Positions 11,058 through 30,389 of a DNA stretch of 64,000 nt are shown piece after piece. The stretch spans positions 372,001 through 436,000 of the forward strand of contig NZ_JAPJBQ010000002.1 in assembly GCF_026421305.1 (NCBI RefSeq), read 5' to 3'. Below the pieces are notes generated by a model. The model saw only the letters and a list, made by a program, of their open reading frames with translations. It was not told the origin of the DNA and searched no databases. Source of the stretch: Dyella silvae. Lineage in GTDB: Bacteria > Pseudomonadota > Gammaproteobacteria > Xanthomonadales > Rhodanobacteraceae. Within the stretch, counting starts at the first letter, position 1, and each line of letters starts with the position of its first letter. The translations under genes were made by a program, and so were the position numbers.

Positions 11058-11504
11058 ATGGAAGCCGTCGCGCTGCATTACTGGTGGTGGATTCTCGCGC
11101 TGGTGCTGATCGCCGTGGAGGTGATCCTGCCGGGCTACTTCATGTTGTGGATCGGCATTGCTGCCGGCGCCACGGGGCTGGTGGTGCTGGTTTTTCCTGG
11201 CCTGTCGACACTCGGGCAGGCGCTGGTGTTCGTGGTGTTGGCGTTTTTGTCCTGCGCTGCGTACTGGTACGGCCTGCGTCCGCGACTGATGCGTAATGAG
11301 CCGGGCGATGCGCGGCTGAACCGGCGTGGGGAGCAGAAGATCGGGCAGCGTTACGTGTTGGTGGAGGCCATCGTTAACGGGCGTGGCAAGGCCAAGGTGG
11401 GGGATAGCCAGTGGCTGGTTCGCGGACCGGATTTGCCGGTGGGGAGCATGGTGGAGGTGGTTGGGGTGGATGGGACGACGTTGTTGGTGAGGGCGGTGGA
11501 GTAG
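11058..11504 (+). CDS. NfeD-like membrane protein
   Basis: 148 residues. Three or so transmembrane segments in the first 80 residues (HYWWWILALVLIAVEVIL; GIAAGATGLVVLVF; LVFVVLAFLSC) are followed by a C-terminal OB-fold-like soluble domain (GQRYVLVEAIVNGRGKAKVG...GTTLLVRAVE). This is the short NfeD form without a protease domain, equivalent to YbbK in E. coli. The ATG at 11058 is chosen because it gives the expected N-terminus 13 bp after the SPFH gene; the longer open frame overlaps that gene. Confidence 0.88.
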   Translation: MEAVALHYWWWILALVLIAVEVILPGYFMLWIGIAAGATGLVVLVFPGLSTLGQALVFVVLAFLSCAAYWYGLRPRLMRNEPGDARLNRRGEQKIGQRYVLVEAIVNGRGKAKVGDSQWLVRGPDLPVGSMVEVVGVDGTTLLVRAVE

Positions 11505-11566
11505 GGGGTTTGTGCGCTTACTCGTCGTTCTGACGAATGTCGGACAAGCGTGAGGTACGCTTTTAG

Positions 11567-11625
11567 CTCCCTCTCCCCTCCGGGGAGAGGGTTGGGGTGA
11601 GGGGTGGGTGCTCGCGGTAACGTTT
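11567..11625 (+). repeat. REP-A copy 1
   Basis: A 59-bp module beginning CTCCCTCTCCCC and ending GCTCGCGGTAACGTTT, with a hairpin CTCTCCCC-TCC-GGGGAGAG. At least six copies occur in this window (also 12529, 21906, 22004, 29471, 49611), always between genes. It follows the nfeD stop by 62 bp. Confidence 0.85.
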
Positions 11626-11636
11626 ATTCCCCTCAC

Positions 11637-11700
11637 CGTCATCCCAGCGAAGGCTGGAAGCGCTTCACAACAGCCGAAGGCTGGTCATCCAGTGACTTTG
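11637..11700 (+). repeat. REP-B copy 1
   Basis: Begins CGTCATCCCAGCGAAGGCTG and contains GAAGCGCTTCACAACAGCC. The same sequence occurs in reverse orientation at about 30390-30465, next to the second repeat island. Confidence 0.75.
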
Positions 11701-11730
11701 CTCTTTCGCCGTAACTTAGCGATACCGCAC

Positions 11731-12482
11731 CCTGGCTCGCCTGCGGCGGGCTTCCGCCCTCCTGCCGGAGGCCGGGTCACTTCTCTTTGCGTGGCCAAAG
11801 AGAAGTAACCAAGAGAAAGGCCACCCCGATGGCGCGCCTTCCGGGCTGATAGCCCGGAAGGTACGCGGGCGGGTTACGGGGTTTTTCGACAGGGCTTCCT
11901 GCCCTGACGAAAAACTGGCCGGCATCCATGCCGGCCACCCTGCGGGCTATTCCTCCACCCGCCCGCCGCGCCATAGGGGCCCGGAGGTCAAGAGCGAAAG
12001 CCAGAGCCAGGGCGGCGCGCGACGCGCGCCAGAAGCCAAGTGCAGAGCGGAGGCCAAAGCCAAAGCCAAAGCCAAAGCCAAAGCCAAAGCCAAAGCCAAA
12101 GCCAAAGCCAAAGCCAAAGCCAAAGCCAAAGCCAAAGGGCATCGAGGCGTACGTGCGCGTGGAACATGGACACGGCTTCGCCAAGTGCGATGCGCAGCTT
12201 CGCTGCGCGAGCCTGACGCTCTTGATCTGAGGGGCCCCTGTGCGGCGGTGAGGGTTGGACGATCAGGCCCCGCAGGGGTGCCTGGCATGGATGCCAGGCA
12301 CTTTTCGTCAGGGCAGGAAGCCCTGTCGAAAAGCCCGGCCGACCCTCACGGACTTGCCGGGCTATCAGCCCGGCAAGCGCCAAGCGGGGTGCTCTTTCTT
12401 TTGGTTACTTTTCTTTGAGCAAGCAAAGAAAAGTGACCCGGCGATCGGCAGATCGTCGGAAGCCCGCCGCAGGCGAGCCAGG
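11731..12482. repeat. Composite inverted-repeat island, copy 1 (five-hairpin arms)
   Basis: Left arm 11731-12000 and right arm 12218-12482 are imperfect inverted copies of each other. Reading the right arm, hairpins occur in this order: TGCCTGGCAT-GG-ATGCCAGGCA (12279-12300); CAGGGC-AGGAA-GCCCTG inside a TTTTCG/CGAAAA extension (12302-12332); CTTGCCGGGCT-ATC-AGCCCGGCAAG (12353-12377); ACTTTTCTTTG-6nt-CAAAGAAAAGT (12407-12434); CGATC-GGCA-GATCG (12442-12455). The left arm has equivalents at 11917-11936, about 11884-11915, 11837-11861, 11779-11806 and 11758-11771. Stems differ between arms but stay complementary. The centre holds a hexanucleotide array. Open frames occur on both strands but look incidental. 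Confidence 0.9.
12053..12136 (+). repeat. Hexanucleotide array (GCCAAA)14
   Basis: Fourteen perfect copies of GCCAAA in the centre of repeat island 1. On the plus strand it reads as PKPKPK and on the minus strand as GFGFGF, LWLWLW or ALALAL depending on frame. The second island has a related but different array at the same place. Confidence 0.95.
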
Positions 12483-12528
12483 TCGCGAAAGCACCACATC
12501 AGCGCCAAAAAGCAAAGGCCAGAGATAG

Positions 12529-12588
12529 AAACGTTACCGCGAGCACCCACCCCTCACCCCAACCCTCTCCCCGGCGGGGAGAGGGAGC
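12529..12588 (-). repeat. REP-A copy 2 (inverted)
   Basis: Reverse-oriented copy of the 11567 module, with hairpin CTCTCCCC-GGC-GGGGAGAG-type sequence. With copy 1 it brackets the repeat island, so the whole island is a nested inverted structure. Confidence 0.85.
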
Positions 12589-12788
12589 CAAGAGCGCACT
12601 TCGTCCGCAACGAGCGCCAACAGACGTCGTGCATAAAAACGAGAAGACACACAAACCAAACCCAAACACCCGGCATCCACGCCGCTGACAATAGCCATCC
12701 AAATCAGTTCTACTACCCCCATGCACCTCGCCTCACACATCTCCCGCATCACGCCGCTCGCGGCCGCCACCTCGTGGACCGCAACGCG

Positions 12789-14063
12789 ATGACTCACCCC
12801 GCCATCGTCACCCCGTTGGTTTTGGCACCGCTGAACACGCGCATCGCGTTTCTGCTGGAGCTGGCGCGTCGCTTGCACCAGTACGGTACGGCGGCACCTC
12901 GCCTGGAAGGCGCCATTTTGGGGTCGGCGCAGCGCTTGGGCTTGCAGGCGGATGTGTGGTCCAGTCCTACGGCCATCATCATTTCCTTTACGGATCTCGC
13001 TCAGGGCGAGGACGAGGTGGCGCAGGTCACGCAGGTGATGCGGCTCGCGCCGGGCGACGTGAATCTGGCCCGGCTGTGTGAGGCAGATGCCATCGCCGAC
13101 AAGGTGATCGCGGGCGATATCGAGTTGCGAGAAGGGTTTCGCTTGCTGCGTGATCTGGGGCGTCCCGATACCCGTCGCGCGCAGGCGGGTGTGATTGCCA
13201 GCTACGGGTTGGCGGCCGCCAGCGTGGTGGCGTTGCTGTTGCACAGTTCGTGGGCGGATCTCATCACGGCGGCACTGATCGGTCTGATCATCGGCAGCAT
13301 TACCGTGCTGTCGGCGACGCGACCCCGGCTGGCGGTGGCCAGTGAGGCGATCAGTGCGCTGGTGGGGACGATCATTGCCATCGTGGTCAGCCAGTTTGTG
13401 GTGCCATTGGCGATCAAGTCGGTGATTCTGGCGGGCTTGATTGTGTTGATGCCGGGTATGGCGCTGACCACGGCGGTGCGTGAGATTTCCAGTCAGCATC
13501 TGGTGTCGGGCGTGGCACGCATGGGTGGTGCCATTGCGACGTTGATCAAACTGACTTTCGGTACGGTGGCGGCAACGCAGCTGTGCCATGCGTTTGGTGT
13601 TGAAGGGCGAGACTATGCACTGCCGCCGTTGCCCGCGTGGACGGATTATCCGGCGCTGATCGTCGGCGCCTTTGCTTTCGCCATTTCCTTCCGCGCCGCG
13701 CGGCGCGATTGGCTGGTGGTGATGGCGGCGGTGGTGCTGGGTTATCTGGCAACCCGCTGGGGTGGTGCGTTGGCAGGGAAAATTCCCGCGGCGCCGTTTG
13801 GCGTATTCCTTGGTGGACTTACGCTGGGCAGCCTGGCCAATCTTTATGCGCGCTTTGTGCATCGGCCGGGTGCGATCATTCGCGAGCCGGGCATTATCCT
13901 GCTGGTGCCGGGTAGTGTGGGATTCCGCAGCGTATCGTCTTTACTCGAACGCGATACCACGCTGGGACTGGATACCGGCATGCTGCTCATTACGCTGTTG
14001 ATTGCATTGGTGGCGGGATTGTTGTTTGGCGATTTGCTGGTCGCGCCGCGCCGCTCTCTTTGA
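12789..14063 (+). CDS. ThrE-family threonine/serine exporter
   Basis: 424 residues from ATG 12789; the frame is open far upstream through the repeat island, but ThrE homology begins at ALNTRIAFLLELARRLHQYG. The N-terminal half has the soluble start and helices of a DUF1212-type domain (for example DLAQGEDEVAQV and a DRHxxx-like region), then about ten hydrophobic segments, the last five forming a ThrE_2-type C-terminal domain. Predicted proton-coupled efflux of small hydroxylated amino acids across the inner membrane; the substrate is inferred from the family only. No convincing ribosome binding site precedes the ATG; GTG 12774 is an alternative. The terminator at 14081 ends the transcript. 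Confidence 0.85.
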   Translation: MTHPAIVTPLVLAPLNTRIAFLLELARRLHQYGTAAPRLEGAILGSAQRLGLQADVWSSPTAIIISFTDLAQGEDEVAQVTQVMRLAPGDVNLARLCEADAIADKVIAGDIELREGFRLLRDLGRPDTRRAQAGVIASYGLAAASVVALLLHSSWADLITAALIGLIIGSITVLSATRPRLAVASEAISALVGTIIAIVVSQFVVPLAIKSVILAGLIVLMPGMALTTAVREISSQHLVSGVARMGGAIATLIKLTFGTVAATQLCHAFGVEGRDYALPPLPAWTDYPALIVGAFAFAISFRAARRDWLVVMAAVVLGYLATRWGGALAGKIPAAPFGVFLGGLTLGSLANLYARFVHRPGAIIREPGIILLVPGSVGFRSVSSLLERDTTLGLDTGMLLITLLIALVAGLLFGDLLVAPRRSL

Positions 14064-29529: not shown

Positions 29530-29843
29530 CTATCCCTCACCTTTGTTCTTTCGCCCTTATTGACGGTGCGGCGACCTGGCTCGCCTGCGGCGGGCTTCCG
29601 AACCGCTGCCGCGGTCCGGGTCACTTCTCTTTGCGTGGCCAAAGAGAAGTAACCAAGAGAAAGGCCACCCCGATGGCGCGCCTTCCGGGCTGATAGCCCG
29701 GAAGGTACGCGGGCGGGTTACGGGGTTTTTCGACAGGGCTTCCTGCCCTGACGAAAAACTGGCCGGCATCCCTGCCGGCCACCCTGCGGGCTATTCCTCC
29801 ACCCGCCCGCCGCGCCATAGGGGCCCGGAGGTCAAGAGCGAAA

Positions 29844-29909
<66 letters not shown>

Positions 29910-29968
29910 GCGGCGCGCGGCGCACACCAGAAGCGGCACCCGTGGTTTCCCTACACCTATGGTTCCCT

Positions 29969-30049
29969 TGTAGGAGCGCACTTGTGCGCGGCCGCAGCGT
30001 TTCGTCGTTGCCGCTCCGTCGGCTGGTCGCGCACAAGTGCGCTCCTACA
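29969..30049. repeat. REP-C inverted pair inside island 2
   Basis: TGTAGGAGCGCACTTGTGCG at the left and its inverted partner CGCACAAGTGCGCTCCTACA at the right, separated by about 30 bp. Appears to be an insertion of one repeat type into the centre of another. Confidence 0.85.
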
Positions 30050-30389
30050 GAAAAGACGCGTGACGAATGGCGATGCGATGTGCCGCGCCAGCGGCACGAG
30101 CCTTTGCGCTTTTGATCTGTGGGGCCCCTGTGCGGCGGTGAGGGTTGGACGATCAGGCCCGCAGGGGGATCGGCATGGATGCCGATCCCTTTTCGTCAGG
30201 GCAGGAAGCCCTGTCGAAAAGCCCGGCCAACCCTCACGGACTTGCCGGGCTACCAGCCCGGCAAGCGCCAAGCGGGGTGCCTTTTCTCTTGGTTACTTCT
30301 CTTTGGGCAAGCAAAGAGAAGTGACCCGGCCTCCGGCAGGAGGTCGGAAGCCCGCCGCAGGCGAGCCAGGTCGCGGGAACGGCCACAAG

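Follow-up and report, generated by a model that had tools for sequence, protein, structure and literature searches.

Two islands of inverted repeats in the window, the 64,000-nucleotide stretch of Dyella silvae DNA that we analysed, are built from arms that recur in many other genomes. From comparison of these copies, we favor on balance the reading that each arm is a conserved RNA of ~250 nt that is read outward, contains a triplex H-type pseudoknot, and carries loops hypothesized to bind CsrA/RsmA.

Two islands are built from inverted copies of a five-hairpin unit

Island 1 (positions 11731 to 12482) consists of an A-type unit on the minus strand and a B-type unit on the plus strand around a variable middle. 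Island 2 (29575 to 30370) likewise has two inverted units and a variable middle, and neither island as a whole has a strand. A first-pass annotation, made from the letters of the window, had described both islands as pairs of inverted arms with five hairpins in each arm. We found the islands and arms where it had placed them and located the hairpins base by base. The five hairpins per arm held, but two long-range helices, P1 and P2, had been overlooked. The complete unit, of ~250 nt, has the closing helices P1 and P2 followed by hairpins H5, H4, H3, H2, and H1.

In unit B of island 1 (B1; 12225 to 12482), the outward strand, which is the presumed RNA strand, is the plus strand. The 5′ strands of P1 (12240 to 12247) and P2 (12248 to 12258) are followed by H5 (12279 to 12300), whose loop CAUGGAUG is of the form A(N)GGA, and by H4 (12302 to 12332), which has AGGA in its loop. 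The 3′ strand of P2 (12339 to 12349), H3 or the AGCCCGG hairpin (12353 to 12377), and the 3′ strand of P1 (12378 to 12385) come next. Downstream lie the 5′ strand of S1 (12387 to 12394), whose predicted partner is the H2 loop in a pseudoknot; a putative third strand, TTTCTTTT (12395 to 12402), parallel to the purine arm of H2; and H2 or the ACTT hairpin (12403 to 12438), with a 6-bp bottom (GGTTAC/GTGACC), an 8-bp part assigned to the triplex, and a loop. H1 (12439 to 12458), with a GATC stem and a GGCA loop, ends the series. For unit A of island 1 (A1; 11731 to 12010), the outward strand is the minus strand, which carries H5 (11916 to 11937), H4 (11882 to 11914), H3 (11837 to 11860), the putative third strand TTTCTCTT (11811 to 11818), H2 (11775 to 11810), and H1 (11754 to 11774; CTCC/GGAG).

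The same parts are present in island 2. Its unit B (30128 to 30367, plus strand) has H5 at 30166 to 30189, H4 at 30190 to 30220, H3 at 30241 to 30265, the third strand at 30283 to 30290, H2 at 30291 to 30326, and H1 at 30327 to 30346. Its unit A (29578 to 29820, minus strand) has H5 at 29760 to 29781, H4 at 29726 to 29758, H3 at 29681 to 29704, the third strand at 29655 to 29662, H2 at 29619 to 29654, and H1 at 29598 to 29618. All the stem variants listed by the first-pass annotation are present, namely, TGCCTGGCAT, GGATCGGCAT, and TGGCCGGCAT in the first stem (H5) and CTCC/GGAG (in two arms), GATC/GATC, and ACCGC/GCGGT around GGCA in H1. We also recovered the two compensated pairs that it had reported between A and B arms in the AGCCCGG hairpin and the one in the ACTT hairpin.

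The inverted arms of the islands stand, with the correction that the repeating unit appears to be the arm rather than the island, since regions with a single BLAST-detected arm also occur (for example, L029, L031, and L036). There are two main arm subtypes, A and B, which are ~80% alike, and full islands have A on one side and an inverted B on the other. We observed a second kind of island (L025 to L028, L030, L032 to L034, and L037), in which one full unit is combined with a different right half of ~300 bp; only the H2-H1 end is common to both halves, and by eye the right half looks structured.

Other repeats accompany the islands. Island 1 is enclosed by an inverted pair of another repeat (11552 to 11625 and 12529 to 12602; CCCTCTCCCC...GGGGAGAGGG, 93% complementary), and between this outer pair and the island lie GTCATCC-type hairpins, so that different repeat families form successive shells. 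Short tandem GGCTTT/AAAGCC repeats and variants, in varying number, occur at positions 12057 to 12137 and on the 5′ sides of units in other genera; lying just upstream of the 5′ ends of units, they are probably products of slippage. A REP-like palindrome, TGTAGGAGCGCACTTGTGCGC, is located in the middle of island 2 (29969 to 30049), in a genome with no match to a Y1/RAYT transposase.

Covariation supports a conserved fold

We aligned 68 full units, taken from 150 units of which 102 were non-redundant. The consensus fold has 59 pairs, and 50 of these show at least one double compensatory change among the 68 full units, which come from the order. Column pairs were scored with a G-test corrected for column background, and the null was generated by re-evolving the columns independently on a FastTree tree; this tree was built from the same alignment, and the script is a home-made version of the R-scape idea, not R-scape. 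Tested in this way, 43 of the 31,626 column pairs in the 68 units covaried at an E value of ≤0.05. By hand count, 23 of the 43 are Watson-Crick partners in P1, P2, H5, H4, H3, H2, and H1; 10 link the third strand to both arms of H2; 7 are neighbors within tracts; and the other 3 are 62-159, 183-189, and 151-156. Alignment columns 62 and 159, beside P2, show strong non-Watson-Crick covariation (C-C in 37 units and A-A in 27) and possibly represent a noncanonical junction contact or a marker of subtype.

The first-pass annotation had argued for selection on structure and not on protein. Covariation over many copies, checked with our own script in place of R-scape, backs this argument; an open reading frame (ORF) inside the island was kept in 2 of the 40 D. 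silvae regions (104 and 96 amino acids; GC3-filtered call). The annotation had offered structured RNA and hairpin DNA as alternatives, of which RNA is favored by the excess of G-U pairs and by the strand bias of the loops, and hairpin DNA is less favored. Across 55 structural pairs read on the outward strand, from the island middle to its ends, there were 146 G-U cells versus 29 A-C cells, which indicates that the outward strand is the folding strand. We conclude that the arms very probably share a conserved structured RNA fold, for which the compensatory changes provide good support.

Loops of H5 and H4 resemble CsrA/RsmA sites

The consensus for CsrA/RsmA is ACANGGANGU. The loops of H5 and H4 resemble such sites: A(N)GGA is present in the H5 loop of 66 of the 68 units and in the H4 loop of all 68, and the stems around it vary freely. 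The motif occurs almost only on the strand that G-U pairs favor, with 298 occurrences outward versus 31 inward over whole units. In the order, we searched the 210 bases upstream of the outer module (the segment with H2) for hairpins of 6 bp with A(N)GGA in the loop. At least one was found in 88 of 127 regions and at least two in 72, versus 1 of 127 on the inward strand and 0.67% in shuffled sequences. Outside the order, 10 of 24 regions had such a hairpin and 7 had at least two (inward strand, 0 of 24; shuffles, 0.42%), while the strict hairpin was absent from the 210 bases searched in 14 of the 24. With Thalassocella and Methylocaldum loci added, the count was 12 of 27.

A CsrA gene was found in 31 of 32 unit-bearing genomes and in 19 of 22 unit-free genomes that we examined; CsrA is nearly universal, and hence its presence proves little. 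One genome (G509) has two module matches and no detectable CsrA. We hypothesize that the A(N)GGA loops of H5 and H4 may bind a CsrA/RsmA dimer.

The units are numerous and widespread

With island 1 as the query, we obtained 138 matches in the D. silvae genome (4.45 Mb in 22 contigs). These were grouped by eye into 40 regions, some of which lie at contig ends, so that split islands may have been counted twice; in most of the ~40 regions, two units stand back to back. With arm B as the query, 35 of 61 genomes gave matches, D. silvae included and all 20 of the genus among them. R1, a covariance model of the outer module made from 28 sequences of D. silvae and its relatives, matched 208 of 398 genomes and 52 of 98 genera in the order and 94 of 369 genomes and 76 of 272 genera in the class. 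At the level of the phylum, 70 of 398 genomes matched, and the matches beyond the class, all in one family and weak (E values of 2e-7 to 1e-3), were set aside. Among 60 genomes picked for having matches, the number per genome ranged from 1 to 138, a count that overstates the number of modules because one hairpin may be read on both strands. Carriers among the matches listed include many Dyella species, Lysobacter soli, Rudaea, Dokdonella, Methylocaldum, and a Thalassocella metagenome-assembled genome (MAG), and there are module matches in ten genomes of a genus labeled g56. Arm B gave three short matches to plasmid records, all confined to H2, and no match in phages, and a plasmid or phage element was rejected.

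The arms might instead be giant REP/BIME- or MITE-like mobile DNA, whose hairpins and triplex form in single-stranded or supercoiled DNA for transposition or replication and whose RNA is irrelevant. The high copy number in D. silvae is what such a repeat would produce. So is the pairing of inverted arms whose ends resemble the module: among 117 loci in the order (full-length matches, some overlapping), 54 had the orientation −+, 4 had +−, 54 were single, and 5 had other arrangements. Orthologous sites in congeners also differ in occupancy. Among 20 genomes of the genus, module matches were found past the gene end in the fetched stretch at the island 1 site in 7 and at the island 2 site in 10, with some loci at either site cut at contig ends; one locus (L172) keeps both flanking genes, by eye, and has no island. 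Some Y1 transposase is present in most unit-rich genomes (13 of 17).

Against mobility, no transposase-sized ORF is kept within the 40 D. silvae regions, no target duplication was recognized by eye (one empty site compared, none clean), and both the GGA loops and the G-U pairs are asymmetric between strands. Y1 transposase is present in 10 of 13 unit-free genomes as well, and is thus not associated with the units. The four unit-rich genomes in which Y1 (PF01797, RAYT family) was not found are D. silvae itself, G209, G363, and G111, and on this ground we rejected REP/RAYT mobilization as a requirement. Furthermore, the inverted pair at L149 (1481 to 2660) encloses a reading frame that by eye is coq7-like and not a mobile gene, indicating that unit pairs can flank an ordinary gene. 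Taken together, we consider mobile DNA an unlikely explanation of the arms. In a genome of the same family (G035), Y1 transposase gave 18 matches, many of which score identically, and the stricter filters left no module match.

Units lie between genes

Gene context was derived from a crude GC3-based ORF call, by which 18 of 95 module midpoints fall inside a predicted ORF; we take these to be mostly spurious ORFs within GC-rich repeats. Among the 30 D. silvae regions with both neighbors called, 15 lie between convergent genes, 14 between tandem genes, and 1 between divergent genes. When 13 of these loci were put through a stricter gene call, 10 came out as tandem, 1 as convergent, and 1 as divergent. 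At 79 loci in other genomes of the order, we counted 22 convergent, 49 tandem, and 8 divergent pairs, and 56 other gene pairs there comprised 5, 45, and 6, respectively. These counts indicate some excess between convergent genes and show that avoidance of divergent genes is not general.

The D. silvae counts under the first call, and the larger convergent share elsewhere in the order (22 of 79 versus 5 of 56), would suit 3′-end elements, bidirectional terminators, or insulators, i.e., structures that stop or protect transcripts between convergent genes without a protein partner. The five T residues that follow H5 of unit A on its outward strand would suit them as well. However, the loci under the stricter call are mostly tandem, divergent pairs are not avoided elsewhere (8 of 79 versus 6 of 56), and the T tract is engaged in pairing within H4 and lacks conservation across genera. 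Moreover, such a role would require neither a triplex nor conserved GGA loops, and we regard it as improbable. Intrinsic termination as the main role was rejected after we found 4 terminator-like sites versus 1.9 in shuffled sequences. A consensus scan of positions 11400 to 12800 found no sigma-70-like promoter.

A putative third strand changes together with both arms of H2

The reading that we prefer, a structured RNA read outward, includes a module of three strands. The ACTT hairpin had been seen in the first-pass annotation, but its place in this three-segment structure had been overlooked. An 8-nt pyrimidine tract upstream of H2 changes together with both arms of H2. The combinations of third strand and purine arm include TTTCTCTT/AAAGAGAA, TTTCTTTT/AAAGAAAA, TTCTCTTT/AAGAGAAA, TTCTTCTT/AAGAAGAA, and, at one locus only, TTTCCTTT/AAAGGAAA. 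In a pyrimidine-motif triplex, the third strand runs parallel to the purine arm and forms T.A-T and C+.G-C triples. The tract obeys this Hoogsteen rule in the parallel register both within the order and outside it. In 133 modules, the mean agreement was 0.933 at parallel register 0 and 0.38 to 0.54 at shifts of 1 to 3.

To count matches per module, we started from 283 rows, dropped 99 (<58 nt; hairpin-only or wrong-strand), and rejected 17 of the other 184, leaving 145 distinct modules. In a register parse, 93 of these agreed at 8 of 8 positions, 125 at ≥7, and 19 at ≤5; a minority of matches (for example, L130 and L133) have no good third strand. An early register parser favored GG and shifted GGGTAC modules by one base, and the main count was made with a preference-free parser. 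With several registers allowed, this parser gave 8 of 8 in 59 of 109 distinct modules of the order, versus a mean of 10.8 and a maximum of 23 with shuffled partners. Loci outside the order were collected only after the parallel rule had been formulated. Restricted to the 18 loci from genomes classed as the same class, they gave 8 of 8 in 14 of 22 distinct modules (shuffled mean, 4.0; maximum, 9), and with the Thalassocella and Methylocaldum loci added, 18 of 28 (shuffled mean, 7.2; maximum, 12). These figures replace those of an earlier class set that held six MAG loci of unplaced order (L265, L274, L280, L303, L306, and L311), with 24 of 35 modules at 8 of 8 and GGA hairpins in 16 of 32.

We also applied the tree-based test to 108 distinct terminal modules, leaving out those with arms of <8 bases. 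The 18 best of 1128 column pairs were all predicted ones, and some of them join the third strand to the purine arm or to the 5′ arm. T4-R4 and T4-A5 exceeded every null score, and pairs of T6, T3, and T5 had E values of ≤0.07. In S1, where the H2 loop pairs with the bases that immediately precede the tract, double changes occur in 4 of 5 pairs, 80.7% of cells are paired, and the pair up4-l3 exceeded the null in the same 108 modules. Both stems of an H-type pseudoknot, H2 and S1, are therefore supported by covariation. The linkers between S1 and H2 are very short (1 to 3 nt), which makes simultaneous formation of the whole of S1 geometrically tight, and S1 may hence form only in part. The fitting register leaves six base pairs of H2 below the triplex part; the tract would run down the major groove and cross these last 6 bp in one step. 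From the agreement and the covariation, we strongly infer that the pyrimidine tract (L1) occupies the major groove of H2, forming T.A-T and C+.G-C triples within an H-type pseudoknot.

Alternatively, the third segment could be no triplex strand but the partner of the purine arm in a Watson-Crick hairpin, by switching or strand exchange, or the tract, being mirror-symmetric, could form H-DNA in duplex DNA. In favor of this, the near mirror symmetry of the tracts allows antiparallel pairing to fit 0.825 of positions in the best register. We nevertheless consider it very improbable, given that the parallel rule fits better (0.933), that antiparallel pairing accounts for 8 of 8 in only 17 of the 109 modules of the order and 1 of the 22 outside it, that the asymmetric variants TCTCTTTT/AGAGAAAA, TTTTCTTT/AAAAGAAA, and CTCTCTTT/GAGAGAAA keep to the parallel rule, and that in H-DNA the complementary third arm of H2 and the S1 pairing would be needless. 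The two rules are not separated at ≥7 of 8 matches in the order (parallel, 74 of 109; antiparallel, 72 of 109), and outside it the counts at this level are 19 and 17 of 22. A pure Watson-Crick switch, which scores below the parallel rule, though not zero, was set aside; antiparallel pairing also scores well, and for this reason the Watson-Crick alternative is only partly countered.

Two kinds of insertion were seen in H2. Five of the rejected rows (L105, L111, L114, L115, and L145) carry one extra base precisely where the 6-bp bottom adjoins the triplex part, the position at which the third strand would end. The other is an insert of ~68 nt, made of small hairpins, which separates the 5′ arm of H2 from the S1 strand and has an identical position in subtypes and species that are unrelated (L011, L034, L046, L138, L110, L162, L170, and L200); by eye, its GGA loops are on the opposite strand.

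A possible class of large noncoding RNA

The reading of the arms as triplex-bearing RNA would have the following mechanism. The unit would be transcribed outward, from the middle of the island, and would fold through P1 and P2, presenting an RsmA dimer with two or three hairpins of the GGA type. ENE triplexes resist 3′ exonucleases, and by analogy the triplex pseudoknot end of the unit may do the same. The many copies would then constitute a distributed RsmA-binding pool, or they would make the transcripts, or transcript ends, that carry them responsive to RsmA. As a tentative generalization, in which our confidence falls short of even, the units may represent an unrecognized class of large noncoding RNA in bacteria, with tens of copies in many a genome and carriers in many gammaproteobacterial families, with an eight-layer major-groove triplex pseudoknot end and CsrA/RsmA-type hairpins, serving as a distributed RsmA-binding population with triplex-protected 3′ ends.

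If this is true, a conserved structured RNA has gone unnoticed among the "intergenic repeats" of 94 or more of the 369 gammaproteobacterial genomes sampled. It would also amount to a set of natural variants of an RNA triple helix, in which sequence alone suffices to identify the base triples, and it could provide a genome-wide pool of RsmA/CsrA binding sites in, for example, the Lysobacterales, for which few RsmA-antagonizing RNAs are known to us. The role of large bacterial repeats and the use of triplexes outside riboswitches would become directly testable.

Comparison with known families

A search of Rfam (release 15), which the first-pass annotation had suggested, gave no match at gathering score in the window or in 20 loci of relatives. 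The TwoAYGGAY RNA (RF01731, clan CL00106) scored 32.7 bits against a cutoff of 43 (E value, 0.09) in L111 only, of 6 loci. Like the unit, it has two neighboring hairpins with GGA loops, and these aligned to H5 and H4 of L111; unlike the unit, the aligned part contains neither the P1/P2 junction nor the triplex module. To our knowledge, TwoAYGGAY does not occur as high-copy inverted pairs. The label CL00106, which we take to be that of a clan of CsrA-type binders, is also borne by RsmY. RNAs of the CsrB/RsmX/Y/Z type sequester CsrA/RsmA, have several GGA hairpins, and are encoded at one or a few loci per genome. The unit resembles these sponges in having several GGA hairpins on one strand but differs in number, with ~40 islands per genome here.

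TwoAYGGAY is reported from the human gut, gammaproteobacteria, and Clostridiales (PMC2864571). RsmU of Xanthomonas is described as a 77/117-nt RNA in the 3′ UTR of comEA (PMC7694677), unlike the 250-nt unit, and homology between the two was set aside. REP/BIME elements (PMC3733652) measure 20 to 40 bp; they are, like the unit, intergenic palindromic repeats that often form inverted pairs, whereas the unit has ~250 nt, a conserved RNA-like junction structure, and no Y1/RAYT found in its own genome. A weak alignment of Pseudomon-groES (RF01721) covers H5 to H3 of unit B (E value, 0.0018; 28.8 versus 50 bits), but the middle of the alignment does not pair. Pseudomon-groES, CC2171, SorX, and others were all rejected as lying under threshold. 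Neither a description of the repeat nor its exact H2 strings were found in the open-access literature searched.

In the telomerase RNA pseudoknot, the SAM-II and preQ1-II riboswitches, and the MALAT1 ENE, a pyrimidine strand occupies the major groove of an A-U-rich stem. The proposed arrangement of the unit is alike in placing a pyrimidine strand in the major groove of a pseudoknot or triplex, and its H-type pseudoknot would work in the same way as the triple helix of telomerase RNA. It differs from all of these in sequence and context, in having no riboswitch aptamer and eight predicted layers, and in being a dispersed intergenic repeat. Parts of the unit thus resemble known things, namely, GGA hairpins, triplex pseudoknots, and intergenic repeats, and their combination matches none of the families tested.
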